Assembly: GCA_014607495.2 (NCBI GenBank)
Contig: CP053175.1
Coordinates: 8,370,001-8,434,000, forward strand
Source of the DNA: Carposina sasakii
Taxonomy: Eukaryota; Arthropoda; Insecta; Lepidoptera; Carposinidae
DNA length: 64,000 bases
Direction: 5' to 3'
Below, one piece after another: positions 6,801-64,000 of the stretch. The first letter of the stretch is position 1. The number at the start of each line of letters is the position of its first letter. The notes under the pieces were generated by a model. The model was given only the letters and a program-made list of their open reading frames with translations, ran no database searches and was not told where the DNA came from. A program made the translations under genes and the position numbers.

Positions 6801-9800
6801 CTAAAAAGTATGTGAATGACATGTATCAAAGTGACAGATACAGGCAAATGATGTCACTGACGCCATATTTTCAAAGAAGCGTTTTGGCGCGATATTTAAA
6901 TATTAAACTTTTAATTTGATATTTTTCAGTAAATATGTACCAGAATTGAAAAATACAACTTTTACTGGGTTTTTAAACCTCCAGAGAATAATATAAAATA
7001 GATTTTGAAAATCAGTCAAATAGCCTATTGTCATACAACATTTAAAATTATCTAAATTAGAAATAAACAGAAATTACCTGGAAGTACTCCGTCTCCTACG
7101 CTCCTTATCTCTATCCCTTTCTCTCTCTCTATCGCGATCTCTCTCCTTGTCTCTCTCCTTATCCCTGTTCTTGTCTCTCTCCTTATCCCTGTCCTTGTCT
7201 CTCTCCTTATCCCTGTCCTTGTCTCCCTCCTTGTCTCTGTCCTTTTCCCTCTCCTTGTCGCGCTCCTTGTCCCTCTCTTTCTCTCTTGACCTGCCTCTAT
7301 CCCGCTCCCTCTTGTCGTCTTTGTCTCTATCCTTCTCTTTCTCATCCTTATGGTCGCGCTTGCGCCGGACGACCACATCAGCTTCGTCCTGATTGGAGGA
7401 CAGAACACACGTTAAGGTGCGAAAGTGACGCACACAGCGGTCGGGGCTTTCGGAAAGAACATGGCCGATTGCTATTTTGTGATTTTATACCTTTATAAAA
7501 AATTAAATATTGTATTGTTTTATAAAAGTTGAGATAACGTTACATTACATAGCTTCGTACCGAAATTTATCATGATCAAGCCTAACGAAGGAAAAATCAC
7601 TTTAACGAATTTAGATTAAATTCTTAGAAAGCTATGTTAGTTTTTAGCTAGGCCGTTTGATTGCTGTTTCTTTGAGCTAGCAGATCTTTTCTCATAGTCT
7701 GTATTCGTGCTATCTAGCCCCCAATTCTCATGTATTGCTCGACATATCTACACTCGACTTCCACAAAAACAAAATGGCGGATATTTGAACAACTGATATC
7801 AACAGCAACTTTAATTAGATATCAACATCGCCAATAATGTAATTTCAAAAAGAGATGGTAAAATTCGTCATCCGAGTAACCGGTGGGTCAGTGGTAAGAG
7901 CGCTGGCACGGAATGCAGAGGTCGTGGGTTCGATTCCCACCCGGGTGAGGAATTTTTTCCATTTCTTTATTAATAAATTTTGCATGTTCAAATATGTCGA
8001 GTGCAATGTCGAGCGATAAGTGAGAATTGGGGTTTTGATTGTTTTAGCCTTAGCGTCAATTATCCTTGAAGGTCTGAAGAATATGGTAGGAGATGGAATG
8101 GCTCGCGTTTTTCACTATATTGCGTATTTTGAAAAATGGCATACGTCACAAAATACATAGGTTTCGATGCGTCGTTTACTTATACACCTTCTTCAGTACT
8201 CTACAGGATGTAACAGAAAGGGTATGTTAAGCGAAAAGCTATGTAAATAGCCCACTATAGAGAACCTATTTCCAAAATTTGAGACTCGAAACCACATTTT
8301 TACTTTTCAAGATTGTATGAAAATTCCTGAGATATTTAAAAATTCTCCATACTATCGGGAAAAATAAACATGTGATTTCGGGTCTCAAATTTTATGGATA
8401 GGTTCTCTACAGTGGGCTATTTACATAGCTTTTCGCTTAACATACCCTTTTTGTTACACCCTGTATACATACTATAGCTAATATTATTCTCAACATTCCC
8501 ACGAAAACGTAAATAATCTAAAATTGGCGAAAATTGTAAATATGTGACGTACATATGTGTGGCATCCTCACACGTCCCCCACTCGCCTAGCGCACACACA
8601 CACACACACAATTTTCGCGATCGCATTGCTTTAGCTTCGCTTTGCAAGTTCAAAATAACTACAATAATATGCAAAGCTTATTCTTTAAACGCCAACGCCC
8701 GCGTTGGTTGGATGCAGGCTGCTTCCGACCGGTCGGAGTGGAGGTTGTTGGGAGAGGCCTATGTCCAACAGTGGACTTCTCAGGGCTGTAAATGATGATG
8801 ATTCTTTAAACAATACTCACGGTAAAGAAGTAAAGGAATAAAGGAAAATCCTGTGGTAATATAACTATTAAAAGAAATCCCATTGCGACATCCAATTAGT
8901 ATGTATCTATATACAATAGGATTTGATATGAAAACGACAGAGTGGACGCTTCATATAGTAAATGTAATGACCCTTCTTATGTTCTTTCCAAAACACTTTC
9001 GACTGCTGCGTAACAAGCTATAGCTAAAAAAAAACACGGGTATGTAACAATCAATGTAGGTATACTTTAATTTATCGCCATAGTATTTGTTGCACGTATA
9101 TATTTATGTATGTATAGGAGGGCTATTATTATTCATACAGACTATGTGTTTTTGTTTTATTAGTTTTTAATGGGTTAATTTAATTTAAATATTGAATTTA
9201 CTATTCAAATAAATTTAAATATTTATAAGCAGCTAGGCTCTCAGTCGTAATTTTCATTTAAATCTCTTGCATATTTTTGCTTAAATCAATTTTGCAGGTT
9301 TGATATAAAAAATGACTTGCCTACTTATAAAGTTTTCGTACGTACTTTATACCATGTAGTGACTAAACTAAAAAAAATAAAAATATTACTTCACTTTTTT
9401 ATTCACATTATAAAATAATATTATTGTGTTATATGTATTATGTTGCTTATTACTACTTCAAAATCTTTGTTCACAGAGGGGCGGTTACTCCTTAGTTCCT
9501 AGCTCTATAATTTCGTGTCCCATAATTCATGTCGGTATAGAGATGTGTTCATATAGGGGCATTAGCTTCAGTGGCAAATACAATGTGTGGGTACGTTTGC
9601 TTTTGCCAATACATAACACGTCTTGATATTACTGTTTGCTCTTAAATACTTCCACATAGGGGCCCTTTCAATATAGTTTGCCCTTATATACGTCGTGTGA
9701 TATGATCGTTAGTATTTAAATTCAGAGGGGCGTTTGACTTTTGCCTTAAAATACGTCGAAGTATGAGCGTTAGCTTCTTAGTACTTAAGTTCACTGAGGG

Positions 9801-38401: not shown

Positions 38402-38509
38402 TTTAATAGGTATCGATTCGCGTTTTAGTATCTCTAGTTAGAGAGTAGTATATTCTTTGTTTAGTATAGTATTTGGTTTATTTAGTAAACTTACAACATT
38501 TCAAAATGT

Positions 38510-38925
38510 TTTTTTTTTAAGTTTATCCCGAAGAAAAGGCAAAGGGAACTAAGCCCATACAGCCATTGTCTTTAGTAAATGATTTCTTAAATTATGAGAG
38601 ATGATAATGATGATGATGAATGGAAACGTCGGGAAAATCCTCAAGAACAAGCGTAAAGTTCGTCAAAATGAAAAATTATTGCAGAAACAACTTACACGGG
38701 CCCATGAAGAGATCGTATTCCGGCTAAAATTTTACTCAGCTTACCTGCGTATAAAACCATGCACACGTACTAGATTCACATCACAAGTAATCAAAATATA
38801 ACTTATTTACCAAAAAACATCACTTTACGGACACATGCAAGCCATTTACAAATAATTTTTGATTTTCACAAGAAAATTACACCTGCACCCTTCCAGCTTT
38901 TCCCGCCGAATCATTTCAAAAGTAC
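38510..38925 (-). repeat. SINE-D copy 1
   Basis: About 415 bp, reading on the minus strand from GGCGGGAAAAGCTGGAAGG to CCTTCGGGATAAACT and an A-rich tail. The 3' A tail and lack of inverted ends suggest a non-autonomous retroelement. 110 bp upstream of the Syx17 start codon. Confidence 0.7.
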
Positions 38926-39244
38926 AGTAATACCCCACTTTACGCGACCCCGTTATGCGCGGTTTCACTATAACGCGAATTTTAAAATTCACGTTTAAAT
39001 GCTTCGCATAATGCGAAAGAATGTGTATAAATATAATTTAATCATTAACTCCCCTTTGGTCGCGGGAATCCTCGCGTCCTCTGAACATTCTGATTGAAGA
39101 ACTGGGGATTCCCCGTATTACGACTTTGTTCTATGGCAAAGATTAAATTTTGAATATGTTTAATCATAAACCTCGATATACGCGAATTTCAGTTAACGCG
39201 ATTTTTTCCGGAACGTATCGCTCGCGTAAAGCGGGGTATTACTG
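38925..39244. repeat. Tigger/pogo-like MITE, 320 bp
   Basis: Inverted ends CAGTAATACCCC and GGGGTATTACTG, each followed inward by TTACGCGA-type sequence. Flanked by TA duplications (38923-38924 and 39245-39246). Confidence 0.82.
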
Positions 39245-39264
39245 TACATACCTTGTACATACAT

Positions 39265-39690
39265 TTTTTTTTTTTAATAGTTTATCCCGAAGGAAAGGCA
39301 AGGGGAACTGAGCCCATACAGCCATTGTCTTTAGTAAATGATTTCTAAATTTATGATGGATGATAATGATGATGATGAATGGAAACGTCGGGAAAATCCT
39401 CAAGAACAAGTGTAAAGTCCGTCAAAATGAAAAATAATTGCAGAAACAACTTACATGGGCCCATGAAGAGAACGTATTCCGGCTAAAGTTTTACTCAGCT
39501 TACCTGCGTATAAAACCATGCACACGCACTAGATTCACATCACAAGTAATCAAAATAAAACTTATCTACCAGAAAACATCACTTTACGGACACATGCAAG
39601 CCATTCACAAATAAATTTTAATTTTGACAAGAAAATTATACACCCACTCCCTTCCAGCTTTTCCCGCCGAATCCTGTTTTTTTTCAACTT
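39265..39690 (-). repeat. SINE-D copy 2
   Basis: Same orientation as copy 1, with its T run at 39265-39277. Differs from copy 1 at scattered positions. Confidence 0.7.
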
Positions 39691-39844
39691 CAACTTTTAA
39701 AAATATCCAGTTCTCCGGCTCCGTCGACTATTGACAACACTGACGACAAGATTAACGATTCAGCCAATTTTTTATTGTGGTTGTGTCATTGTCACTGTCA
39801 GTCCACTGTCACTGAGATTGTCATTTTTTTAATAATAACAATAA

Positions 39845-40085
39845 TAATATTCACACACTACACAACACATTAACCTAGTCCCACACTAAGATCCCTAAGG
39901 TCTTGTGTCGTGGGTACTAAGTAACGGTATATAAATGCATAGATAAGTATAGAAACATCCATGACTCGGAAACAAACATCAATATTCATCATATCAATGT
40001 TTGCACCTACCGGGATTCGAACCCAGGACCTATGGCGTCGTAGGCAGGGTCACTACCTACTAGACCAATCGGCCGTCAAATATAA
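39845..40085 (-). repeat. tRNA-headed SINE
   Basis: Minus strand begins with a tRNA-like head (GGCCGATTGGTCTAGTAGGT as box A, GGGTTCGAATCCC as box B) and continues into a body with ATGTTTCTATACTTATC. Distinct from the SINE at 945-1040. Confidence 0.7.
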
Positions 40086-40374
40086 TAAAAATAATAAAAT
40101 TTTACTGGCCTGGTACTAAGTACTTAAGCCGAAATCATACATAAAAATATACTTACTAAAATACTAATGTACACACTAAACAGGTTTTCACTGCACTAAT
40201 TCATGGTAATTGTGTTCTGTGCTGTTAGGAGTAATTGTGTTCTGTGTTCGTAACCGATTTCGGCTCACATGAATGGGATTTTGGCGATTTCGGTTGACAA
40301 CCGTGCTCGTTAGCAACGAAAATTAACCCATAGCCCGTCTTTGTACCGTTGTGAGTGTTGTGACACCTGTTTCG

Positions 40375-40775
40375 TGATTCGGCGGGAAAAGCTGGAAGGG
40401 AGCGGGTGTAATTTTCTTGTGAAAATCAAAATTTATTTGTAAATGTCTTGCATGTGTCCGTAAAGTGATGTTTTCTGATAGATAATTTATATTTTCTTTA
40501 CTTGTCATGTGAATCTAGTGCGTGTGCATGGTTTTATACGCAGGTAAGCTGAGTAAAACTTTAGTTGTAATACGATCTCTTCATGGGCTCACGTAAGTTG
40601 TTTCTGCTGTTCATTTTGAATTTAACTAATTTTGCATTCGCTTTTGAGGATTTTCCCAACGTTTCCATTCATCATCATTATCATACATCATCATAAATTC
40701 TGAAATCATTTACTAAAGACAATGGCTGTATGGGCTTAGGTTCTCTTGCCTTTCTTTCGGGATAAACTATTTTAA
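40375..40775 (+). repeat. SINE-D copy 3
   Basis: Plus orientation, GGCGGGAAAAGCTGGAAGG to TTCGGGATAAACT and an A run. Opposite to copies 1-2. Confidence 0.7.
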
Positions 40776-40791
40776 AAAAACCTGTTTCGTC

Positions 40792-41110
40792 CAGTGGTGA
40801 CAACTTAGAGGTTATACCCCTAAATTTAGGGGGAAATAAGATAACTAGGGGGGCTTTTAGGGGGAGAATTTTTTCAGGGTTTGTTTTAGGGATACAACGA
40901 CTTAACGTGTATTGTCCGTTTCATAGAGTAGTTCCGATGGTGATAACGCTAATTACTATGTGTATGACCACATTTTCTGTGTCAGCATACACGGATGCAA
41001 TCCTACCCCCCCCCGCCCGCTCATAATGAGTTAAAGTTAGGAATTTAGGGTTTTGAGGGGTAGAATTCAAAAATCTTGGGGGTATCATTGGACGTGGGTT
41101 GGCAGCACTG
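40792..41110. mobile_element. hAT-type MITE, 319 bp
   Basis: Ends CAGTGGTGACAAC and GTTGGCAGCACTG, flanked by a perfect 8-bp duplication GTTTCGTC (40784-40791 and 41111-41118). No ORF. A truncated relative is at 24885-25090. Confidence 0.82.
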
Positions 41111-41189
41111 GTTTCGTCAACATTTTAATTTCCAGGGCAGTAACATTTAATTTAAAAAAAAAACATTTTAATTTTTGTTTGTTTGTGGA

Positions 41190-41592
41190 TTCGGCGGGAA
41201 AAGCTGGAAGGGAGCGGGTGTAATTTTCTTGTGAAAATCAAAATTTATTTGTAAATGGCTTGCATGTGTCCGTAAAGTGATGTTTTCTGGTAGATATGTT
41301 ATATTTTGATTACTTGTGATGTGAATCTAGTGCGTGTGCATGGTTTTATACGCAGGTAAGCTGAGTAAAACTTTAGCCGGAATACGATCTCTTCATGGGC
41401 CCATGTAAGTTGTTTCTGCAATTATTTTTCATTTTGACTAACTTAACATTTGTTCTTGAGGATTTTCCCGACGTTTCCATTCATCACCATCATCATTATC
41501 ATCCCATAAATTCAGAAATCATTTACTAAAGACAATGGCTGTATGGGCTTAGTTCCCCTTGCCTTTCCTTCGGGATAAACTAAAAAAAAAAT
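41190..41592 (+). repeat. SINE-D copy 4
   Basis: Plus orientation, ends in ACTAAAAAAAAA. Confidence 0.7.
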
Positions 41593-41631
41593 AGAAATGT
41601 ATACAACTGATTTTAATATTCCAGGGCGGGA

Positions 41632-42030
41632 AAAGCTGGAAGGGTACAGGTGTAACTTTCTTGTGAAAATCAAAATTTATTTGTAGATGGCTTGCATGTG
41701 TCCGTAAAGTGATGTTTTCTGGTAGATAAGTTATATTTTGATTACTTGTGATGTGAATCTAGTGCGTGTGCATGGTTTTATACGCAGGTAAGCCGAGTAA
41801 AACTTTAGCCGGATTACGATCTCTTCATGGGCGCATGTAAGTTGTTTCTGCAATAATTTTTCATTTTGACTAACTTTAAACTTGTTCTTGAGGATTTTCC
41901 CGACGTTTCCATTCATCATCATTGTCATTCATCATAAATTCAGAATACATTTTACTAAACAATGATTAGGCTGTATGGGCTTAGTTCCCCTTGCCTTTCC
42001 TTCGGGATAAACTAAAAAAAAAAAAAAAAT
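41632..42030 (+). repeat. SINE-D copy 5
   Basis: Plus orientation, ends ACT followed by a long A run. Its end marks the left boundary of the bacterial-like segment. Confidence 0.7.
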
Positions 42031-42267: not shown

Positions 42268-44469
42268 TTTGCTATAATTATTCATTTATTAATTAATAAA
42301 TGAAAGCTTGGTAGTCCAATCTATCCCAAACCACAAAACTCTCACAGTAGTTCTTTTTAGTTAAAGAAAAAGTAACTACTTTTAATTTAGTGATAAAAAG
42401 TAAAAATACATACCGATTAAAATAATTTTACAAAAAAAATATCTTGCTAACTTTAGCTCTGCTAACTTTTTCGATTATCATACATAATGAAAATGATAAG
42501 AGACTTATATGTTAAGTAAAGAAACTTCTACATTGTTGCAAGATATTGAGAATTCCTCACAGACAAAGTGGTCATGGAGAGTTGTAAAACAAGTAGAAAA
42601 CGTGGACGTTCTGTTACAGACAAAGATGGTACAGTATCAAAGAGGCTGCACATGGATGTAAGTGTTACTAGTAATGAAGATTCAGAGTTTCCTAGTGATT
42701 CACATGATAAACCTGGACAGGATGAATTGGATAATACTTGTCAAACTAAGCAATACATTCCTCATCACTTGATTGGAATTATGTACCAATTAGACTTGTC
42801 CGTGCTGTGCTCACTGAGAGAGTCTATGTATAAAAATAAATATCCATTATTATCATTAGTGTTTGGAGATTCCGAAATTGATAAATTTAATGATATTGTC
42901 CTTCGTTATGAAAAGAAGTCTATTCATATAAAAATTGAAAATGTAGACAAGTATTACATAAATAATGGCATTAGTTATGCTAGATTATTTACTAAAGAAA
43001 AACGAAGTTTTTCTATCAATAATTACTTTGATAGTTTTGTTAAACATCTAATCTCTAAATCAGATAGTTTATCAAATAATATAGAATATCTTATTGTATA
43101 TACTAATTCAGGCTTTGATCTTACAAAAGAAAAGAATTTAAGAGAAGAAAAATTCAAAAATTTTTATCCTTTTAAATTTGATAGCATAAATATAGAAGAA
43201 TTTGACCTTTTAAAGGACTTTTTGTTTATAAATGACAATATGCAAGAGAGTGGTTTTTATCGATTTTCGCGAGATAAAACAACAAAAGAAGAACTTTTAA
43301 GGCGGTTAGAGTTTTCGTCTGCTATGCAGAAAGTAATAAAAGAAAGAAAAATCTCTCAGGAATTTGAAAAAGAAATAAAAGAAGCATTTTTAGATAAATT
43401 AGTGTTTGCAGTTAATCAGCCTAATAGAGAAGAGCTGAACAGGATTATTAAAAATGAAATAGAAAAAAATAGCACAGTTGAAGATTATATAGCATTACAG
43501 GAAAGAGTGTTACATTATTTAACAGCTCCAGAAAAGGATCAAAAACTGGAGAATCATGTGTCTAGAATTATATATGAATTCAATTTATTAATGCTCTTCT
43601 TGCATTACATGTTTTTGTATAAAGATATATTTTCCATAAATTATGAAGGAAAAACCCATGATATATCTAATAACATTGCCCTTGATTATAAAGATAAAGT
43701 TACTTATATAAAGGCTTACAATACAAATGGTAATATTGGTTATAGTCAGTTATTTCCCTCTAGACAACAGAGTATGTTTTCTATTAATAAATATTTTACT
43801 CTTTTTGTTGAAGAACTAAGAGAGAGTGTAGAATACTTTATTATCTATACTAATGCAAATCTAGATCTTACAGAAGAAAAGAAGTTAAAAGAAGGGCGAT
43901 CTAAAGATTTTTATCCTTTAAAATTTGATAATGACAAAGCTTTAAGAGATTGTTTGTGTATAAATGAGAATGGTCTTTTTCGATTTGTGCTAGAAGAAGC
44001 AACAAGAAAAAAGCTTTTAAGTCTATTAAAGCTTCCACCTTCTTTGCAAAAAGAAAAAGAAGAAGGAAGACTTTCTAGTGAGAATGAACAAGAAATAAAA
44101 GAGAAATTTTTAGATAAACTAATATTTGCAATTAATCAACCTAATAAGGAAGGATTGAATAATATTGTTAAAGATGAGATAGATACATTCGATGTTCCAT
44201 ATAATTATGAAGAATTACATGAAATAGCATTACGTTGGTCAGAATCTCATGAATTTGGTCCTCTTACAAAAGCAATAATGGAAAAGCTTTTGGGAGATAT
44301 AAAAAATAATAGATCTAGTTATAAGATTCAAAATAAAAACATTAATGAAGAAATAAAATTTGCTAGAAGTGTGGTTGGTAGAGAGGGAATACCTGCATTT
44401 AATCAGTTCTTAATGTTTTTAAATACAGGAGACGGAAAAAAATATCTGAAAGTCATGAAAAAAGAACTA

Positions 44470-46700
44470 ATAAGCTTAACTAATGTATCCAGTATCTTAG
44501 GCGGAGCGAGAGGTAAAGCTCCTACAGCATTTCAAGGCTTATATGGTCTATGGTTTGATAAAGAGGGAAACAAAACTCAATATTTAAAAACCCTAGAAAA
44601 AGAGGGAATAAATCTAGCTAATATATCTAGTATTTTGAATAGAGCAAGAGGTAAAGCTCCCACAGCGTTTAAAGACTTATATGATCTGTGGTTTGATGAA
44701 GAAGGAAATAAATCGCAATATTTAAAAACTCTAGAAAGAAAAGGAGTAAATTTGACTAGCATGTCTAGTATTTTAAGTGGGGCTGGGGCTAATGCTGCAA
44801 CAGCATTTAAAGGCTTGTATGATCTGTGGTTTGATGAAGGTGGAAATAAAACTCAATATCTGAAAACTCTAGAAGAGGAAGGAATAGATCTAACTAATAT
44901 GTCCAGTATTTTGCATGGAGTAGGAGCTAATGCTACAAAAGCATTTAAAGGCTTATATGATCTGTGGTTTGATGAAGTTGGGAATAAAACTCAATATCTG
45001 AAAACTCTAGAAGAAGAAGGAATAAGTCTAACTAATATGACCAATATCTTGCATGGAGTAGGAACTAATGCTGCAACAGCTTTTAAAAACTTATATAATC
45101 TATGGTTTGACGTGAAAGGAAATAAAACTCAACATCTGAAAATTCTTGAAGAAAAAGGAATAGATCTAACTAATATGTCCAGTATTTTAGGTGGATCAGG
45201 AACTAATATTGCAACAGCTTTCAAAGACTTGTATGACCTTTGGCTTGATGAAGATGGAAATGAAACTCAATGTTTAAAAACTCTAAACAAAGAAGGAGTA
45301 AGTTAACTAATATGTCCAATATTTTAGGCGGAGCAGGAGCTAATGCTGCAACAGCTTTTAAAAATCTATATGACCTATGGTTTGATGAAGAAGGAAATAA
45401 AACTCATTATTTAAAACCCTAGAAAAAGAGGGAATAAATCTAGCTATATATCCAGTATTTTGCATGGAGTAGGGCCTAATGCTGTAACAGCTTTCAAAGA
45501 CTTATATAGTATGTGGTTTGATAAAGAAGGTAATAAAACTCAATACTTAAAAACTCTAGAAGAAAAAGAGATAAACCTAACTAATATGTCTAGTATTTTG
45601 AATGGAGCAGGAGTTAGTGCTGCAGCAGCTTTCAAAAGCTTGTATGATCTGTGGTTTGATGAAGAAGGAAATAAAACTCAATATTTAAAAAAATTAGAAA
45701 AAGACGGAATGAGTCTAACTAATATATCCAGTATTTTGCATGGAGCAGGAGTTAATGCTTCTAAAGTTTTTAAAGAACTATTTGATACTTTTTTTGATGA
45801 GCAAGGAAATAGAAAACAGCATTTAAAGCACTTTTTTATTAAGGAAAAAGGTGGAGATAAAAGCTTTAAGCTAAGTAACTTATCCAGTATTTTAAGTAAA
45901 GCAGGAACTAGAGCTAGATATGCTTTTGAAAAATTGCATAGTGTCTGTTTTAATGATGAAGGAAAAAGAACAAAACTTTTAGATGATTTCTATAAAGCAG
46001 GCTTTAGGCCAAGTAACTTATCCTCTGTATTAAGTGGAACAGGAGCTCGTGCTTCTTCTATCTTAAAAATATTGCATATTGTTTGTTTTAATGAGAAAAG
46101 AGAAAGAACAAAACTTTTAAATGATTTCTATAAGGTAGGTTTTAGGCCGGGTAATTTATGTAGTATGTTGAGTGGAGCAAAGAATAATCTAGAAAAGATT
46201 CTGAAGAGGTTTCATGATTTTTGTGTTATAGGGGACACAAAAAGATACTTAAATCGTTTCTTAAGCGAGGAAGAAAGTTTTACGCTGAGTAACTTATCTA
46301 AGATATTGCACGGAGCAGGAGCTAATATTTGCTCTGCTTTAAAAAATTTTCATGATGTTTGTTTTGATGAGAAAGGAAACGAAACACAGATTTTAGGTGT
46401 CTTTCGTATGGCAGGTTTTACGCCAAGTGATTTATCTAATATACTATCCATGTCGGGAAATAATGCCACTTTTATTTTAAGAAACTTTCATAAAGTTTGT
46501 TTTAATTAAGAAAATTATTTAAATCACTTCTTGGCCGAGAAAAAGCTTTTTACGCCGAAAGATTTATCTAGAATACTACATGGAGTAGGAATTGATGTTT
46601 GTTCTATTTTCGAAAGATTGCATGACCTTTGTTTTGATAAAGAGGGAAACAAAACAAAGTATTTAAAAAATCTCATCAAAAATGATCATTATAAGATATC
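44470..46700 (+). repeat. Array of sixteen 138-bp coding repeats
   Basis: Repeats 1-10 are near-uniform at 46 codons; 11-16 are more diverged, and a worn copy precedes repeat 1. Residues after the SSIL core vary: GGARGKAP, NRARGKAP, SGAGANAA, HGVGANAT, HGVGTNAA, GGSGTNIA, GGAGANAA, HGVGPNAV, NGAGVSAA, HGAGVNAS, SKAGTRAR, SGTGARAS, SGAKNNLE, HGAGANIC, SMSGNNAT, HGVGIDVC. The position after L alternates G/N/S/H, reminiscent of base-specifying positions in TALE repeats (analogy only). Confidence 0.82.
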
Positions 46701-46800
46701 TGATATATTACATGAACAAGTTAAAAAAGCTCCTACTTTTTTAGATAAACAGAATATTAGCCAAGGAGACAAAGTATCTAATGCATCGAGTAATTCATCC

Positions 46801-47028
46801 TGTAGGAGCACGTGTCTGCTACTACATCCAGAATTGATGAGTACTTGATAGGGTGTTGTAGAACAGGAAAGATGTGATAACGTGATAAATCACTTTAATA
46901 ACTTGAAAATAATGATTGATGTGTGCACACTAATTGAATGACGAACGTGAACTGAATTTAGGTAGGAAATAGCGATTTACAGAAAAGCTGACTGCGAAAG
47001 ATTCACAAATGTGCGATGTAATCGTACA
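46801..47028 (-). repeat. BEL/Pao 3' LTR
   Basis: 228 bp, from TGTAGGAGCACGTGTCTGCT to GATGTAATCGTACA on the plus strand; matches 51887-52114. Just inside it lies a purine stretch that may be the polypurine tract. Confidence 0.9.
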
Positions 47029-47304
47029 TATTCCCGGGCCTGAGATGAGATGATCTTACCATACAACTAAGCACATGTTAAAAAAATAGGTAAAAAAAAA
47101 TGAAATAGAAATGTAAATGAATAATAGTAATAAAAATTAAAATCAATAGTCTTGAGTCATCTCTACTTGAGGTGAGGTGATCCTCTCTGCTCGAGGGTGA
47201 ACGCTCGGTATCTCTATGCTCTGCAGACAGCGGGCGGCGGCGGCGGCGCGCGCGCTCGAGTCGGCGTGCGCGGGGGGCGCGTCGGGCACAGGCTGGGGCA
47301 CCCG
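47029..47304 (-). other. Non-coding 3' segment of the BEL/Pao element
   Basis: Lies between the envelope stop and the 3' LTR. Includes a strongly GC-rich patch (about 47215-47300) unlike the rest of the element, possibly captured host sequence. Confidence 0.5.
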
Positions 47305-50058
47305 CTATCGGCACCTTAGCCGTCTAATTGATATTACCACTCCGATGATTCCCAAGATGCCAAATACCACGTATATCATGGTGTAATGATGAATGTCATG
47401 ATATGAGATGCTGTTTGATATCACATCTGCTTGCTTCAGCTTCTTTATGCTCTCTCCGAGTTGAAATAATTCTTGTTGCATTTCAGGTGACTCCTTCAGG
47501 GTCGGAGAGGTAGGTATGGAGATATTGATAACGTCATTTATCGGAGGAATATTCGGCAGATAAATTTCAGGTTTCAAGTTAACTTCGCTTGTATGAAGTT
47601 TGTGCGGAAGTACAGTAAAACTGTCCGTTTTTATAATACAGCTATACTGGGCATGTATAATACCTGTGTCGGTCAGCTGATGTGCTGTAACTTGATCTTC
47701 GCATATTGTCCGGACTGAACATCGATTACAGCAAAAATATAGATATGTATTTATACTGTTTAGTTCTTCCCATTTGTTTTTACAATTCTTGGTAATTGTA
47801 GTACATTTTGCAGATTCCATTTTACAAAAACTTTTATCTTCCCTAATATAGTACTCCGGTTTTCGAACATGGCAAAAGAGAGTTTCTGATAGAACTAGGC
47901 AGGATCTGATGTCATTTTCGGTCAATGGCGTATAAACGTCCTTCTTCATGTTAATCGCAATATAATCAGATATCGGAATTATACTGATCATTTGATTTCC
48001 TTTCTTCTCTGGTACGGATATTAATTTAAGAATTTCGTAACCGTCTCTGCTGATGAGAGGTAGTCTTATCTCAAAAATAAGCACATCTTCTGCGAGTCTT
48101 GCCTTTACTTGTAGCAGCTTGAAGATCTTAGATAACTCTGTATGAAGGTTTTCAATTGGAAGCGAGACGTCCTTAGGTAATTGGCTCGCGATGATACCCA
48201 GCTCCTTGATGAGTTGATCGGGGGTTAATAGATGAGAATCGAACCGACCGTGGTATATGTCCGTAATAGTATCCAATAATGTATTTTGAATACTACGTAG
48301 ATTATGTAACATGTTGCTCGCTACTGTCGCCCCTATGTTAAAGGAGATAAGGATCCGATTGCCCTGAACTTCGTCTTTTATCTGATTAAGGGACTTGTCT
48401 AATGTATTAATATGTTTGTTGATCATTTTGTGTTGCAACTGCATTGTTGATTCAGCTCTTTTTAATAGATTAAATTCGGCTTCTATAACTGACGTTTGAT
48501 TTTTCCAAAGAGAGGCTATATATTTCTCGTTGTCTCGAACTAGTGCGATGTCTTTTCTGTACTTCGCGGCAAAATTTTCGTCTAATACTCCAAACAGGCT
48601 GTTAGCAAGGTAACCGACACCATTGATAAGTCCCCGGCGCCGGCGCACTTGCGTGTTCGAAATATGCTTGCTAAGTAACATTTGATTGTAGTACTCGAGT
48701 TCCGCGAATCCGTGACGTAATTGTAGTATTATAACGTCACAGAGGCCTTGTTGCCGTATAGTGTTACATGTATCTTGTAATGTTTGCGTATATTTTTCTA
48801 GCGCCTTTATTCCTTCCCAATAAGGCTCTAAACTATAATATGCGACGATTTTCCATTCATTCTTGATTATCATCATGTCGGAGATCTTGTCAAAATAAAG
48901 TCCTTGACCCTTTCTGATTTGGGTCACGTTGACGTCGCATTGAGAAGTTGACACGGTAGATAAGAGCAGAAATAATGTTGTGACTATAGAGTTGAGGCTA
49001 AACTTAATATGACCACTTGCGCTTACTTGGCGTTTTCTATCTGTAGTCACTGACATTACGTCATTTGTTTGACGTAGCTTGACGTCACAACTTTGCGTTG
49101 AACTTTGTGGGTGTTTATCGGCGTTTGCTAGCAAAGTAGAAATTTTGATAATAGGCCGCTTCAAATATCCACTTTTAGTCTTCAACGTAACGACACGCAC
49201 GTAACCGTCCTTTCCTTGATGCAGTTCGGTAACTCTACCCATAGCCCACTTGCCTGGCGGTAGGTTGTCGTCATGGATTAGCACGACGTCATCGACTTGT
49301 AAGTTACGTTGAGGGTTTCTCCATTTACTCCGTGCGGCTAATTGCATTAAATATTCTGAGCGCCATCTTTTCCACAAATCCTGTAGAATTTTTTGGGTTA
49401 TATACCATCTTGTGCGTTGATCCTTTTCTGTTTCCATCAACGTCAGAGTTGGCCCACTTGCTAAAAAGTGAGACGGCGTAAGGTAATTCAAATCTTCTGG
49501 ATCTTCAGTTAATGGGCATAATGGTCTTGAATTTAGGCAGCCCTCTATATGGGCTAGGAGAGTTGAAAATTCTTCGTAAGTGAGACGTTGTTCGCCAATT
49601 ACTCGTTTCAGATGATATTTAAAACTTTTCACTGCCGCCTCCCAGAGGCCTCCTGCTGACGGCCAAGCGGGGGCATTGAAATGCCACGTGATTTCCATTT
49701 CCGCTATCTCACCAAGGAAATCTTTGTTTATTACATTTTGTATTTCTTCAAATTCAAGTTGTAGCAACTTACTAGCTCCGAGGAAATTACGTCCGTTATC
49801 ACTGTAAAGGTGCTCTGGTTTACCTCTACGGGCTGACATCCTTCGAATAGCGGCTAGTAAGGACGATGTTGTCAAGTCTGCCACCAACTCAAGGTGCACC
49901 GCCTTGGTCACCATGCACACAAACACAGCTACATACGCCTTTGTGGTCTTGATACCACGTCCCTTGTTAGATTTCACGTATACGTGGCCTGTGTAATCCA
50001 CACCGGTGTGCATGAAGGGACGGGATGGGTTTATCCTTGATTCCGGCAAGTCTCCCAT
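47305..50058 (-). CDS. BEL/Pao integrase core continuous with a baculovirus-F-like envelope
   Basis: One open frame of 917 codons. The first part is the integrase catalytic core with its three acidic residues (HTGVDYTGHV, LYSDNGRNF, PSAGGLWEAAVKSF), then the DUF5641-type C-terminal region (VDDVVLIHDDNLPPGKWAMG). After about residue 350 comes an envelope-like protein: a hydrophobic signal-like helix (VTTLFLLLSTVSTS), a furin-type site RRRR followed by the fusion-peptide-like GLINGVGYLANSLFGV, coiled-coil segments, a Cys-rich region and a C-terminal membrane anchor (YVVFGILGIIGVVISI). This matches the F-type fusion proteins of baculoviruses and insect env-bearing retroelements. The env part would normally come from a spliced RNA. 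The frame is intact, but the element cannot be autonomous. Confidence 0.87.
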   Translation of the reverse strand: MGDLPESRINPSRPFMHTGVDYTGHVYVKSNKGRGIKTTKAYVAVFVCMVTKAVHLELVADLTTSSLLAAIRRMSARRGKPEHLYSDNGRNFLGASKLLQLEFEEIQNVINKDFLGEIAEMEITWHFNAPAWPSAGGLWEAAVKSFKYHLKRVIGEQRLTYEEFSTLLAHIEGCLNSRPLCPLTEDPEDLNYLTPSHFLASGPTLTLMETEKDQRTRWYITQKILQDLWKRWRSEYLMQLAARSKWRNPQRNLQVDDVVLIHDDNLPPGKWAMGRVTELHQGKDGYVRVVTLKTKSGYLKRPIIKISTLLANADKHPQSSTQSCDVKLRQTNDVMSVTTDRKRQVSASGHIKFSLNSIVTTLFLLLSTVSTSQCDVNVTQIRKGQGLYFDKISDMMIIKNEWKIVAYYSLEPYWEGIKALEKYTQTLQDTCNTIRQQGLCDVIILQLRHGFAELEYYNQMLLSKHISNTQVRRRRGLINGVGYLANSLFGVLDENFAAKYRKDIALVRDNEKYIASLWKNQTSVIEAEFNLLKRAESTMQLQHKMINKHINTLDKSLNQIKDEVQGNRILISFNIGATVASNMLHNLRSIQNTLLDTITDIYHGRFDSHLLTPDQLIKELGIIASQLPKDVSLPIENLHTELSKIFKLLQVKARLAEDVLIFEIRLPLISRDGYEILKLISVPEKKGNQMISIIPISDYIAINMKKDVYTPLTENDIRSCLVLSETLFCHVRKPEYYIREDKSFCKMESAKCTTITKNCKNKWEELNSINTYLYFCCNRCSVRTICEDQVTAHQLTDTGIIHAQYSCIIKTDSFTVLPHKLHTSEVNLKPEIYLPNIPPINDVINISIPTSPTLKESPEMQQELFQLGESIKKLKQADVISNSISYHDIHHYTMIYVVFGILGIIGVVISIRRLRCR

Positions 50059-50445
50059 TATTTGATAGTTTTTATCTGGGTTATGCTTTTTGCACGTAAT
50101 GCACTGGCGAATAAATTTTTTGTTGTTTTAATTCCACTAAGTAGCCAATACTTTTGCCGAACAAATGACAATGTAATACGAGCTCCTCCGTGGTAGGTAT
50201 TTTTATGCGCTTGCATAATAATTAACTCGGTCAAGCGACTGTTTTGAGACAAAATAATTGGATGTTTCATCTCTGGATTGATATGGGCATGTTTTAATCT
50301 CCCGCCAACTCTCATAATGCCATCTTCATCAAGAAAGGGGTTCAAACTTAAAATCTTGCTTTTGGAGGGCACTTGGTTGCCCTTTCGTAGTTCGTTTATC
50401 TCAGTTTGAAATTCGTTTTCTTGTACCCTTTTGATAATTATCTTA
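50058..50445 (-). pseudogene. BEL/Pao integrase zinc-binding region, frameshifted
   Basis: Carries the conserved DGIMRVGGRLKHA segment and the His pair of the HHCC finger (HKNTYHGGARITLSFVRQKY). The frame is lost before the Cys pair, near 50110, and resumes in the integrase core. Confidence 0.75.
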
Positions 50446-51767
50446 TTAGCTAGCTTGATTTCCGTTAGAGTGAGGTAGGGGTTCCGTTTTTCTGTCTTGT
50501 TTTCGACTTATGAACCGACGAATCCACGCCAGCACGTGTATAACCTTGGCGTAAGAGCTACACTTGTCTAATAGTTCAACCACGAGATTATTAGTGTTGG
50601 TTGCAGAATATACCTCCCCGAGGATTAGCTTAGTTTTTGCTTCTTCATTTGTCGTATAAATTATCTTGCTTGATTCTTGTTCTTTGAACGTGATTGTTGG
50701 AAGCCATGCTGGTCCTTTCCACCATAATGCGTGTTCTTCTAATTGCTTAGCTGTTAGTCCCCGGCTTGCACAATCTGCTGGGTTCTCGGCAGATTTGACG
50801 TAGCGCCAACAAGTAGCAGGAATAACTGGAGTAATTTGTTGTACCCTGTTGGCAACAAATACTTTCCAACGCTGGGTTTGACCTTGTAGCCAGCCTAGAA
50901 CAGCAGTCGAATCCACCAACCATAAACCTTGACACGATGATTGCTCAGACTTTCTCGTACTTTCTCCATTAATGTAGCTAGTAGGAGAGCTCCACACAAC
51001 TCCAATTTCGGCAAGGATATGTCTTTATTATGGGGTACTAATCTTGATTTTCCCGCCACTAAAGTTATTAGAGTTTGACCTTGTTTATTTGTTTTGCAAT
51101 AAATTACACAGGCGTACGCTTTCTGCGATGCGTCACAGAACCCGTGTAATTCGATATCGCTCGACGATTCAGTACCTAACCATCGTGGTATGTTTAGGTT
51201 ATTTATAGCTGCTATGTTTTGTTTAATTTTAACCCATTCCTTGTTAATATCTTCGGGGATCTTGTCATCCCACTGAAGGTTTCTTTTCCACACAGACTGA
51301 AATAGGAGCTTCATCTGTGTTGAAATCGGCGTTAGCCAGCCTAGTGGGTCAAATAGCCGAGCGATTTCGGACAAAAGTTGCCTTTTCGAACAGACAGTCG
51401 TATTCTCAGCTATCTCAAATATCAATTTAAACGTAAATACGTCATCTGTGGAGTTCCAATTGAGGCCTAAGGTTTTCATTGACTCTGGCTGTCTAAAGTT
51501 GTAGGTCTTATCCGCACATTCGCCCTTGTCGGCGTCTTGATTAGTTAATGTGGGATGGTTAGACTTCCACTTTCTTAAGTTGAAGCCGCCTGACTGTAGT
51601 AACTGTACAAGATCCTTTTGTAGTTTTTCGGCTGACGTCACTGAGTCGGACCCATGTAAGAGATCGTCCATATAAAAACATTGTTCGACCACCTGAGCAG
51701 CTTCTGGGTATTGTGACCTTTCATCACGCGCCAATTGTTTCAGCGTCATCATGGAGCTGGGTATCAT
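50446..51767 (-). pseudogene. BEL/Pao reverse transcriptase (3' half) and RNase H, frameshifted
   Basis: Two overlapping frames (51767-50895 and 50997-50446). The first begins MMTLKQLARDE, just upstream of the polymerase motif CFYMDDLLHG, and continues through the thumb (ARLFDPLGWLTPI) into RNase H (HGFCDASQKAYACVIY, LPKLELCGA). The second continues RNase H (LWLVDSTAVLGWLQG, NPADCASRG). The palm motif with the first catalytic Asp is missing. Confidence 0.8.
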
Positions 51768-51789
51768 CTATGCAACAAGGCACATCAAA

Positions 51790-51882
51790 CCTTCGATAGC
51801 TCAGTTGGTAGAGCGGTGGACTGTAGTTGGAATTTCGATTGTCATCCATAGGTCGCTGGTTCATATCCGGCTCGAAGGACCA
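51790..51882 (+). pseudogene. Complete tRNA-Tyr(GTA) copy with intron and CCA, beside the LTR
   Basis: Exon 1 is 51790-51826, a 17-nt intron is 51827-51843, exon 2 is 51844-51879, then CCA (51880-51882), which nuclear tRNA genes do not encode. The 73-nt mature part folds as a standard cloverleaf: acceptor CCTTCGA/TCGAAGG, D arm GCTC..GAGC, anticodon loop CTGTAGA, T stem GCTGG/CCGGC. The T loop is TTCATAT, so position 58 is T instead of the near-universal A. In the element's sense strand the 3' end of this copy is the primer-binding site, four bases after the LTR. A reverse-transcribed primer is the best explanation; a functional gene is unlikely. Confidence 0.9.
51865..51882 (-). promoter_or_regulatory. 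Primer-binding site for tRNA-Tyr
   Basis: On the minus strand, TGGTCCTTCGAGCCGGAT begins four bases (TTAG) after the 5' LTR and is complementary to the last 18 nt of tRNA-Tyr including CCA. Confidence 0.85.
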
Positions 51883-51886
51883 CTAA

Positions 51887-52114
51887 TGTAGGAGCACGTG
51901 TCTGCTACTACATCCAGAATTGATGAGTACTTGATAGGGTGTTGTAGAACAGGAAAGATGTGATAACGTGATAAATCACTTTAATAACTTGAAAATAATG
52001 ATTGATGTGTGCACACTAATTGAATGACGAACGTGAACTGAATTTAGGTAGGAAATAGCGATTTACAGAAAAGCTGACTGCGAAAGATTCACAAATGTGC
52101 GATGTAATCGTACA
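51887..52114 (-). repeat. BEL/Pao 5' LTR
   Basis: Matches the 3' LTR base for base where compared. The CATCC target duplication follows at 52115-52119. Confidence 0.9.
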
Positions 52115-52289
52115 CATCCGATAAAACGAAGCGAGAACAAAACTTGGGTAGTTTACAACAAAGTGATTCTAAAATTAAGAGAAAAACCCGGAAGAGTACC
52201 GCAAGAAACTGCTGACGTAATAGATGATAACCCTGAAATTTATTTAAGTGATACCACAAAAGATAATCAATCAATCAATCTCCAAGTTT

Positions 52290-52683
52290 TTAAGCTATTT
52301 CTTTCTTGACTTGTAAAATTTCAGCTTTAGGATGGCCAGTAGATTCAGCTATTAAATCGATACACCAGCTTTAAGTAGATTTTTAGCCAATGCTCTTTTA
52401 GCCTGTTTTTTCGCCGTCTTCGCTGTCTTTTTCATGTCCGATTTGGATGCCTTATTTTTGCCTTTTTCAGTAGCATCATCAAGTTTTTGAGCGAGAACAG
52501 CTTGTTCATCAAAAATACGTTTTATAAGCAATAAATTCTTTTTCTGGCCAGTTGAATCTATTTAGCTCTTCATAGGCCTTTTTAATTATTAGATCACTAC
52601 TTATTATTTTTGAAGTCAGGAATATCATAAGAATGTCCTTATTTTTTTCAGTGCCGAAGATGCGCTTGAACGATATGAGAGTA
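52290..52683 (-). pseudogene. Rpn-family PD-(D/E)XK nuclease/transposase, 3' part
   Basis: Rpn proteins are bacterial recombination-promoting nucleases, abundant in Rickettsia- and Wolbachia-type genomes (family knowledge). Read on the minus strand: FKRIFGTEKNKDILMIFL near the start, then IIKKAYEELNRFNWPEKEFI, a Lys/Ala-rich helix, and the characteristic end AKNLLKAGVSI followed, in another frame, by LIAESTGHPKAEILQVKKEI. A small deletion causes that frameshift, and a further shift follows FIAYK. The 5' part, expected on the far side of the group II intron, is missing. The gene is convergent with the repeat-protein gene, 75 bp away. Confidence 0.7.
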
Positions 52684-52756
52684 GACCAGGAGAACTTCCC
52701 TCCTGGCCCCTTCCAGAATCCTGCGTGAAACTCGCGCTTCATAAGGCTCCCACTAG

Positions 52757-54290
52757 TCATTGCCCTAACCCTATACTCAATTTCCAGTGCACAAACAGAT
52801 TTGATCTGCTCTTTGCAGTTCTTTCTAGTACCTTAGCTGCTTTGGTTTTGTGTCCTCTCAGATTTTTGTACTTTGTCTGGAACCACTTTCTGAGTTTTTT
52901 ATTAAACATTCTTATTATGCTATCTAGTACAGTTATATGATGCTTCCCGTAATAGTTAAACCTTCCTCTCAGGATTGGATTACATATTCGTAATATATCT
53001 TCTATTTCCAAGTTTGTTCTTCTAGCAAATTTCCAGCTTCTAATTTCTTTCTTCACCTTGTTCAGACTTTCTTTACTTGCAGTTGGAGTAAAGCTTACAA
53101 ATAGACTACTATCTTTTCTATTTCGTAAAAGTCTTTTTCTAAATTCATATCCAAGAAATGTAAATGATACATTCTCATGATTATCCCTTCGTTGTCCATC
53201 TTGATAATAGATAATTTTGGTTTTCGTATGTTTTATTTCCAATTTGCAAATCTTCAGTCTCTGTTCAAGTTGACCAAGAATTAGTTGTGTTTGACTCTTG
53301 CTTACACAATGTATAACACCTCGTACGCGTGATCTTCGCCCATATTACTTAATCGTATCGGGTGCAAGTGCTGCGCGCGGGCCGTGTGCGCTCGTCTGCA
53401 TATCGCTTGGTTACTCCCTGGCTTCTCGCTCCTTACCAAGACTTGAGTTTTTGGACATTTATTTAAGTACTTATAAGCAACGTTTTTTACTATTGCTAAA
53501 TCTGACTACATATTTCTATAACAGCAATAGAAATATGACCTATACTTAACAGCAAAACTTAAGTAATAAAATGTAATGCTCCTTCTAAAGTATACATGTA
53601 ATTGTTCCTACAAAATAAGTTGTCTACTCGATGTCATATAAATATTGGTACTATCATCAATAACAAATCAATTTGTAAGTTTATAGAGGTATTCTATCAA
53701 AGGTAAGGTAAGGTAAGGTATTCTAATAAAGACTTTAAAAAAAACTATAACACCATCATCAGCATATCTTGCCCACTTTACACTTGGATATTCTCTTCTC
53801 ATCCACATATCAAAGCTGTAGTACATAAATAGGTTGCTTAAGATAGGAATTACTACACCCCCGTGCGGCATCCCACTGAGACGCTTTAGTTTTGTCCCAT
53901 CTTTTTGCTGTATCTCTGCACTTAGCCAGCTTTGCATATATAAGAGAACCCACTTATTTGTGGTATGCTTTCTGACTTGATGTCGAACGAACTCTGTTAA
54001 CCAATCTTGATCGAAGCATCGTCTTCTCGTTTTTCCTATGGCATCTAATGCCGACTTATTTGGCCTATAACCATATGAATCCTCATCAAATACCTTCTCA
54101 AGTTCTGGTTCTAAAACACTTCTCACCACTTCCTGTGCTATTCGATCGGCAACAGTTGGTATCCCAAATGTCCTTGTTCCTCCTTCTGTCTTAATTATAT
54201 CATAAGCCTTGACTGTGTATTCCATAGCTTGTAAAGGTTCTTGCTTAAGTCTTGATCAAACTTTTCAATTGTTAGATCATCAATACACAC
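52757..54290 (-). pseudogene. Group II intron reverse transcriptase/maturase
   Basis: Would splice and mobilise the intron. Pieces in order: LTIEKFDQDLSKNLYKLWN (about 54290-54225), frameshift, then GGTRTFGIPTVADRIAQEVV, FDEDSYGYRPNKSALDAI, a deletion removing the FD catalytic palm motif between WLTEF and VRKHTTNKWVLLY, MPHGGVVIPILSNLFMYY, and the active-site YADDGV near 53755. After the insert, the frame resumes at 53311 with HCVSKSQTQLILGQLEQRL, KTKIIYY, FTFLGYEFR and the maturase domain with LRGRFNYYGKHH. Loss of the palm motif and frameshifts make it inactive. The family is bacterial and organellar; no mitochondrial features are seen. Confidence 0.85.
53321..53745. mobile_element. 425-bp insert with 9-bp target duplication
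   Basis: Flanked by TATAACACC at 53312-53320 and 53746-53754. Removing it and one duplicate restores the maturase frame. One end carries a short GGTAA microsatellite (53701-53720) and the other a GC-rich stretch, suggesting a non-LTR retrotransposon fragment; family not identified. Confidence 0.8.
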
Positions 54291-62925: not shown

Positions 62926-63192
62926 TTGTGATGTGAATCTAGTGCGTGTTCATGGTTTTATGCAGGTAAGATGAGTAAAACTTTAGCCGGAATACGATCT
63001 CTTCATGGGCCCATGTAAGTTGATTCTGCAATTATTTTTCATATTGACTAACTTTACACTTGTTCTTGAGGATTTTCCCGACGTTTCCATCCATCGTCAT
63101 CATTATCATCCATCATAAATTCAGAAATCATTTACTGAAAACAATGGCTGTATGGGTTTAGTTCCCTTTGCCTTTCCTTCGGGATAAACTAA

Positions 63193-64000
63193 AAATAAAA
63201 ATTACAGCATTTTTTCTAAATAAATCCAGTAAAGAGCTAATTTTTCTCGATATACAGTTTTATTGAAAAATCCGAACAAGGGTACCAGCAGAAACTATTT
63301 ACCATGGATATTGATACAGGTAAATACATGATATTTATAAACTATATAGCGCTTAACCTCATTGTTGGGGTTTTTATTATTTACAATATGCATATTACAT
63401 GTGGCCGAGTTATAAGATCCTAGTAATATACATAAAAAAACAAACAAACACCATTTTTCTTCATTATAATTATTTTTGTTCTAACAAAACTACTGCACGC
63501 TAGCTACCTACCTTATATGTACATGAATTCCAACCCTCATACCGATGGGTACCTACAGGCAAATGGCAGTCAGTGATTGGCTTATACTGCGCTGTGAAGC
63601 CTACTTCTACATTAACGGTTGCAGAGGAACATTGATAATGACACCTTGTCTTACACTTAGGTGTATAATGAACTTTTCTACCTACATTAGAAACTCGATT
63701 AACTGGACTATTAATATTAATTAATGGACTAATTGATGGCATTTGGATAATCGAATATCCGGATAAGCGAATGTATGAATGAAGAATTGCAATTTAATGC
63801 ATATATAAGGTATTTTATGGGTTCCGGTAGCGTTAGCAACTTTTTTATATAATTATAATGCTTTTTCACAGAGCAAAGGACTAGATATTGGTTGCCCAGT
63901 TACTCGTAGTTTGTAAAAACCGACAATTCAGACGCACGTCAAGAGCAGTTAGCAAAAGCAATGCGATAGCGAAAATTGCTTATCAAATTCATATTATATA
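63193..64000. other. Right edge of the window
   Basis: A short exon-like ATGGATATTGATACAG before a GTAAAT donor at 63303-63318 (plus strand), a minus-strand frame at 63500-63742 with CKTRCHYQCS, a TTTGGATAATCGAATATCCG pogo-like end near 63743, and the start of the AGCAAAAGCAATGCGATAGC MITE at 63953. None is firm. Confidence 0.35.

Follow-up and report, generated by a model that had tools for sequence, protein, structure and literature searches.

How does a retroelement come to carry, where a short primer-binding site (PBS) is expected, the complement of an entire tRNA, and why does that copy depart from the tRNA at one particular base? This question is raised by positions 51790-51886 of a 64,000-nucleotide stretch of Carposina sasakii DNA (hereafter the window; contig CP053175.1, positions 8,370,001 to 8,434,000). 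The initial annotation, which was made from the letters alone, had read the segment as the product of reverse transcription that ran through the m1A58 stop of the primer tRNA. The analysis reported here leads us to assign a probability of about 0.85 to the following account: an over-long plus strand, started on an unspliced tRNA-Tyr primer, was extended past m1A58, mis-transferred, and then integrated.

Anatomy of the element

The element spans 46801-52114 on the minus strand and is bounded by two 228-bp LTRs (3' LTR, 46801-47028; 5' LTR, 51887-52114; both on the minus strand) that have TG...CA ends and are identical at 228/228 positions. It is flanked by the 5-bp target-site duplication (TSD) CATCC, which is found on the left at 46796-46800 and on the right at 52115-52119; LTRs of this kind with a short TSD are those of a BEL/Pao element. 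Pfam analysis indicated a Pao-type pol with Peptidase_A17, integrase core, and DUF5641 domains. On the minus strand, a pol ORF at 50895-51767 contains the YMDD motif and Peptidase_A17, a further pol ORF fragment at 50446-51024 has no Pfam match, and the ORF at 47305-50127, scanned as two pieces, encodes the integrase core, DUF5641, and a Baculo_F-type env. Both gag and protease are missing, and on these sequence features the element is filed as a deletion derivative of a gag- and protease-bearing BEL/Pao element. Its best named protein relatives are from Lepidoptera (top match, 54% identical), and searches of viral and genome contig collections returned no relatives of the element.

Several other features of the window were recorded. 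Adjoining the element, the minus-strand region 52675-54255 looks like a broken group II intron, which is unexpected in an animal nuclear genome; it contains a GIIM maturase domain (52760-53344) and an RVT_1 RT domain (53671-54255), its Rfam Intron_gpII score is 35 bits (below the cut-off of 40), and a scan of the genome contig collection found no relative of the RT piece. Two long plus-strand ORFs of 918 and 364 aa (42550-46509 and 44345-46684) lie over a 138-bp tandem repeat array; the longer one matches Ntox33 with 34 bits (cut-off 28), no single stretch passes, and the match is perhaps a repeat artefact. A tRNA-Ser-like sequence at 5672-5746 on the minus strand belongs to a repeat family also seen at about 911-1038 and 7844-7980 (about 87-90% alike) and is probably a tRNA-derived SINE. 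Finally, a repeat of about 400 bp is present several times at 38506-42030 and 62926-63201; its copies lie in both orientations and are mostly 86-94% alike.

The tRNA-Tyr copy and its donor gene

Inward of the 5' LTR, after a 4-nt spacer (51883-51886, minus strand; CTAA on the plus strand), the element carries a full tRNA-Tyr(GTA) in complement, its 17-nt intron included; the tRNA itself is read on the plus strand at 51790-51879 and is followed by CCA at 51880-51882. Rfam recognized it as a tRNA with 57.3 bits (gathering score 29; E 1.8e-10), so that the sequence and Rfam both agree with the initial description of a complete intron-bearing copy with a non-genomic CCA, four bases from the LTR. 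On the plus strand, the 5' exon (positions 1-37) occupies 51790-51826, the intron 51827-51843, and the 3' exon with the CCA 51844-51882.

A search of the host genome (399 Mb, 31 contigs) identified ten tRNA-Tyr genes, none of which encodes the CCA. The 3' exon of the copy differs from these genes solely at position 58, which is A in 10/10, and the single T-loop deviation that had been noted is thereby borne out. The intron is identical (17/17) to that of one gene only among the ten, L002 at C21:4415763-4415852, and the copy equals this gene, intron included, except for A58 changed to T at 51864; another of the ten, L011, has a changed 5' exon. Gene L002 is without CCA and has a T-run downstream, and the window copy begins at tRNA base 1 with the gene leader not carried over. 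With its CCA and T58, the copy does not have the features of a functional tRNA gene; it has those of a read-through product, namely a tRNA complement directly after LTR and spacer, ending in CCA, and a changed base at the m1A58 position. Because the copy has the exact C21 intron, the CCA, and a start at base 1 without leader, we infer that the template was an end-processed, CCA-added, and still unspliced tRNA; the intron comparison thus supports the suggestion that an unspliced tRNA served as primer. The full-length case is a single copy: no second full tRNA-bearing match was found among the 40 candidates scored in the genome search, and hence no full-length relative that combines the same tRNA segment with gag, an observation that would have spoken against read-through.

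Where over-extended copies end

The genome contains 400 exact 18-nt tRNA-Tyr PBS matches, compared with 0 for a reversed control. The normal stop was counted on the first 72 of these 400 sites, which have 56 distinct right flanks and are not all independent. In 67 of the 72, the match to the tRNA past position 59 was not above background (1-8/20 bases at positions 38-57). Four sites run to about position 38, two with T58 and two with A58, and the remaining one (L068, C3:14323751) is of intermediate length, running 7 nt past position 58 with T58.

Manual reading of the alignments placed the ends of 15 of 24 extended loci (window excluded) at positions 37-39. Four independent shorter copies clearly pass position 37, and all have a changed G37: it is T in L015, L016, and L050 and deleted in L020 (and its duplicate L021), which ends near position 27. 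L014 is a weaker case of changed G37. Locus L053 keeps both A58 and G37, its match going on for two more bases, and in L024 and L052 G37 is matched before the match breaks off. In the unspliced copy of the window, G37 is unchanged (51826). G37 of animal tRNA-Tyr is m1G. In yeast, tRNA-Phe must be spliced before Trm5 methylates its G37 (PMC4090602, PMC11408192; the literature is cited here and below from excerpts). An unspliced primer may thus have been without the m1G37 block at 37 while already bearing m1A58, and RT would have reached the tRNA 5' end because m1G37 was lacking.

The clustering of ends near position 38 could also stem from a different primer rather than from a block by m1G37: the 3' half of a tRNA, for example the 3' exon before its ligation (38-76). 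The 3' exon begins at position 38, and the 15/24 loci ending at 37-39 are what such a primer would give, but L015, L016, L020/L021, and L050 run on into the spliced 5' exon and have a changed G37, a result that no half molecule can yield, and the explanation does not apply to the window copy. We regard a half-molecule primer as a possible, though doubtful, source of these ends.

Base 58 in copies that pass it

The census of position 58 covered tRNA-Tyr primer copies in this one genome. When positions 57-59 were left free, so that the search had no bias to T58, 15 exact places passing 58 were found, with T in 10, A in 1, C in 1, G in 1, and a deletion in 2 (one duplicated locus accounts for two of the T places, and another for both deletions); the base was thus changed in 14 of the 15. 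A second search demanded A58 with at most three mismatches and so did not lean to T58 either; with the ten CCA-less tRNA genes set apart, it returned 27 copies that run past 58, of which 16 have T, one C, one G, and 9 A at that position, and none equals the tRNA exactly. Among these 27, two end in CCG and one in CTA, C14:7569455 and C14:7663996 are one duplicated locus, and four A58 copies (C26:2344921, C27:318090, C30:2682557, and C31:1726186) are known from the search match only. In copies from this search with a single mismatch, the mismatch lay at 58 in 11 of 14; the binomial probability for one of 35 positions is 3e-15, and it is 3e-12 when the window copy and a duplicate are excluded. 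In a set of 25 loci, from which the duplicates L018 and L021 were dropped and which leans to T58, having been found mainly by a T58 query, position 58 was changed in 20 and kept as A in 5; any other position between 38 and 76 was changed in at most 5 (position 38 itself) and in at most 3 further in. Over-extended tRNA-Tyr copies therefore show a genome-wide excess of change at position 58, and the proposal that the altered A58 of the window is a mark of read-through and not a lone mutation gains from this recurrence, with the qualification that 9/27 copies keep A. Misincorporation by RT at m1A is known (PMC4787781), and excerpts of the same source describe a low C signal in RT data for m1A followed by A, the context found here.

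Alternatively, T58 might have been inherited, an ancestral extended PBS with T58 having given rise to the many T58 copies. The 10/15 share of T58 among the exact extended copies and the pairs with common LTR families would fit such descent, yet (i) the 25 loci fall into about 17 LTR groups with differing inner flanks, (ii) the window LTR matched none of the other loci's LTRs, (iii) position 58 differs within single LTR groups (C in L023 and A in L051; T in L024 and G in L050; T in L025 and A in L052), and (iv) the window intron represents a fresh copy from a gene with A58. We consider inheritance an improbable source of T58.

Relatives of the element and the junction with pol

What the window element has lost can be read from a relative on C5, the LTR of which is 99.6% identical over 228 bp and the pol of which is 99.3% identical to that of the window (6 mismatches and 1 gap in 956 columns). 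This relative carries DUF1759, which we take to be the BEL gag, together with an aspartyl protease, an RT that reaches YMDD and continues beyond it, Peptidase_A17, and an integrase zinc-binding domain. With it as reference, homology to pol resumes in the window at 51754, just upstream of YMDD, which confirms that the element lacks gag, protease, and the first part of RT and resumes in mid-pol. It had been expected that normal relatives would have an 18-nt site followed by gag. The gag was indeed present in the C5 relative, but the length did not hold throughout: in the nearest relatives, L059 (C5) and L060 (C2), the tRNA-Tyr match at the PBS is confined to the final 13 nt, to which the last 13 nt of the window tRNA copy correspond, against the 18 nt matched at 400 sites in the genome; the less closely related L058 (LTR, 90%) has an 18-nt PBS with one mismatch. 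In another family, a 36-nt extension with T58 adjoins a DUF1759 ORF (L026), an arrangement suggesting that extended sites can also occur in gag-bearing elements.

The 35 nt that separate tRNA base 1 from pol (51755-51789) are not themselves pol. In the sense of the element, this filler consists of one T, 21 nt that equal gag of the C5 relative in antisense (51768-51788, minus strand; L070 1000-1020), and then antisense env (51753-51768, minus strand). The env piece matches the stretch at 48190-48205 (plus strand) exactly over 16 nt, and 22/23 with the next bases, and it enters pol through a TGATGA microhomology. Microhomology, which the initial annotation had advised looking for near 51760-51790, is thus present at the junction, but 51755-51789 is filler and not resumed pol; a pol origin of these bases was rejected in favor of antisense gag and antisense env. 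As copying of genomic RNA gives antisense sequence, the plus-strand end, after running off the tRNA, probably hopped over RNA; the assignment of strands and their order at the junction would follow from this reading. The claim that the over-long strand was transferred to a wrong place accordingly extends to several such places: antisense gag, antisense env, and then pol.

A patchwork of filler with microhomology is typical of end joining, and its presence here could be taken to mean that a normally integrated element later suffered a genomic deletion, with templated repair joining tRNA-like sequence to pol. A CCA-bearing tRNA copy with a misread base 58 points instead to an RNA template, the two LTRs are still identical, and the TSD is intact, so that we hold a later deletion to be very unlikely. 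The insertion beside the LTR, by DNA-level events, of a tRNA gene or a tRNA-Tyr-derived SINE with a later mutation at 58 is scarcely credible and was rejected, for although a tRNA complete with its intron might have been copied from a gene, the CCA is in none of the ten genes and sits at the PBS position of the relative, no gene flank was carried over, LTR ends and TSD enclose the unit, and the change at 58 recurs at other loci. The ten gene loci were also inspected for flanks matching the pol side of the element, which would have favored insertion of a gene, and none was found; the CCA, the absent gene flanks, and the intact LTRs and TSD around the unit all support the original view that the tRNA was copied during reverse transcription.

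Other extended loci

At L012, an LTR is followed by an extended PBS with T58 and then by the terminal 40 nt or so of an LTR, and the duplication ATAAA flanks the whole; judged by this layout, L012 is a second rearranged unit that keeps both LTR ends. Among the 17 loci L012-L028, inspected over about 4.9 kb on each side, it is the only one with a second LTR piece on the inner side. Clear TSDs were seen at the window element and L012, with a candidate in L017 and another, without an LTR end, in L013; at the other extended loci tested, no consistent TSD was found, and clear duplications are rare. The inner flanks of most of the 17 extended loci are left without explanation by the read-through account.

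Proposed mechanism

We propose that an end-processed, unspliced tRNA-Tyr from the C21 gene primed synthesis on BEL/Pao genomic RNA. Plus-strand strong-stop synthesis would have copied U3-R-U5 and then the attached tRNA; at m1A58, the usual stop, RT would have read through with insertion of dA, which gives T in the tRNA-sense strand. If methylation of G37 has to await removal of the intron, there would have been no block at 37, and RT could have copied the intron and continued until it ran off the 5' end of the tRNA. Having failed to pair cleanly with the minus-strand copy of the PBS, the over-long 3' end may have copied short stretches of genomic RNA, gag and then env (hence antisense), before annealing to minus-strand DNA in mid-pol via TGATGA and being extended. 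The product, with both LTR ends, would have integrated with a 5-bp duplication. This scheme presupposes that the host tRNA-Tyr bears m1A58 and, once spliced, m1G37, and that an unspliced tRNA can act as primer.

Discussion

In HIV-1, m1A58 is the normal stop of plus-strand strong-stop DNA on tRNA-Lys3; in vitro, RT copies unmodified tRNA as far as the 5' end, and in TRMT6-mutant cells synthesis proceeds past A58 (excerpts of the review PMC13191261). Read-through of both kinds is thus already known from that work, and the likeness to the present case lies in an RT that passes primer position 58. The HIV-1 observations were made in vitro or in methyltransferase-mutant cells, whereas those reported here concern integrated copies with a changed base 58, one of them apparently made from an intron-bearing primer. 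An HIV provirus resembles the window element in having a CCA-bearing tRNA copy at an LTR together with deletions, but there the tRNA is tRNA-Gly, outside the 3' LTR, and self-primed copying was proposed, whereas in the window a PBS-matching tRNA lies at the PBS (excerpts of PMC12220202). The BEL/Pao element Achilles, from the olive fruit fly, is described with an 18-nt PBS, and the excerpts of its description mention no tRNA body (PMC4580426). A review of PBSs in mammalian ERVs asked, as we do, whether tRNA modifications leave misincorporations in the PBS; its conclusion, in the excerpts available, is that the PBS positions that had changed are not those of known modifications, whereas the mark described here lies just past the 18-nt PBS, in over-extended copies (PMC7472051). 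A search of the accessible text of PMC6625037 for tRNA and strand transfer gave nothing on either, and excerpts of the open-access literature (PMC) yielded no report of over-extended PBSs marked at position 58, nor of a primer that still had its intron.

In the HIV-1 review cited above (PMC13191261), the evidence for m1A58 as the stop comes from in vitro and cell work. In the germline copies of natural retroelements analyzed here, both the expected stop and its failure, with a changed base at that very position, can be seen. The intron-bearing copy suggests that a tRNA can prime before it is spliced and offers a reason why only that copy reaches the 5' end. We lean toward the view that over-extended PBSs form a heritable, genome-wide record, in which base 58 would report m1A58, base 37 m1G37, the endpoints of the copies stops near 38 and perhaps 26, and the intron the packaging of an unspliced pre-tRNA and its use as primer. 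If this is true, the past modification and maturation state of retroelement primers could be read from genomes, and the history of tRNA modification would become testable from genome sequence.
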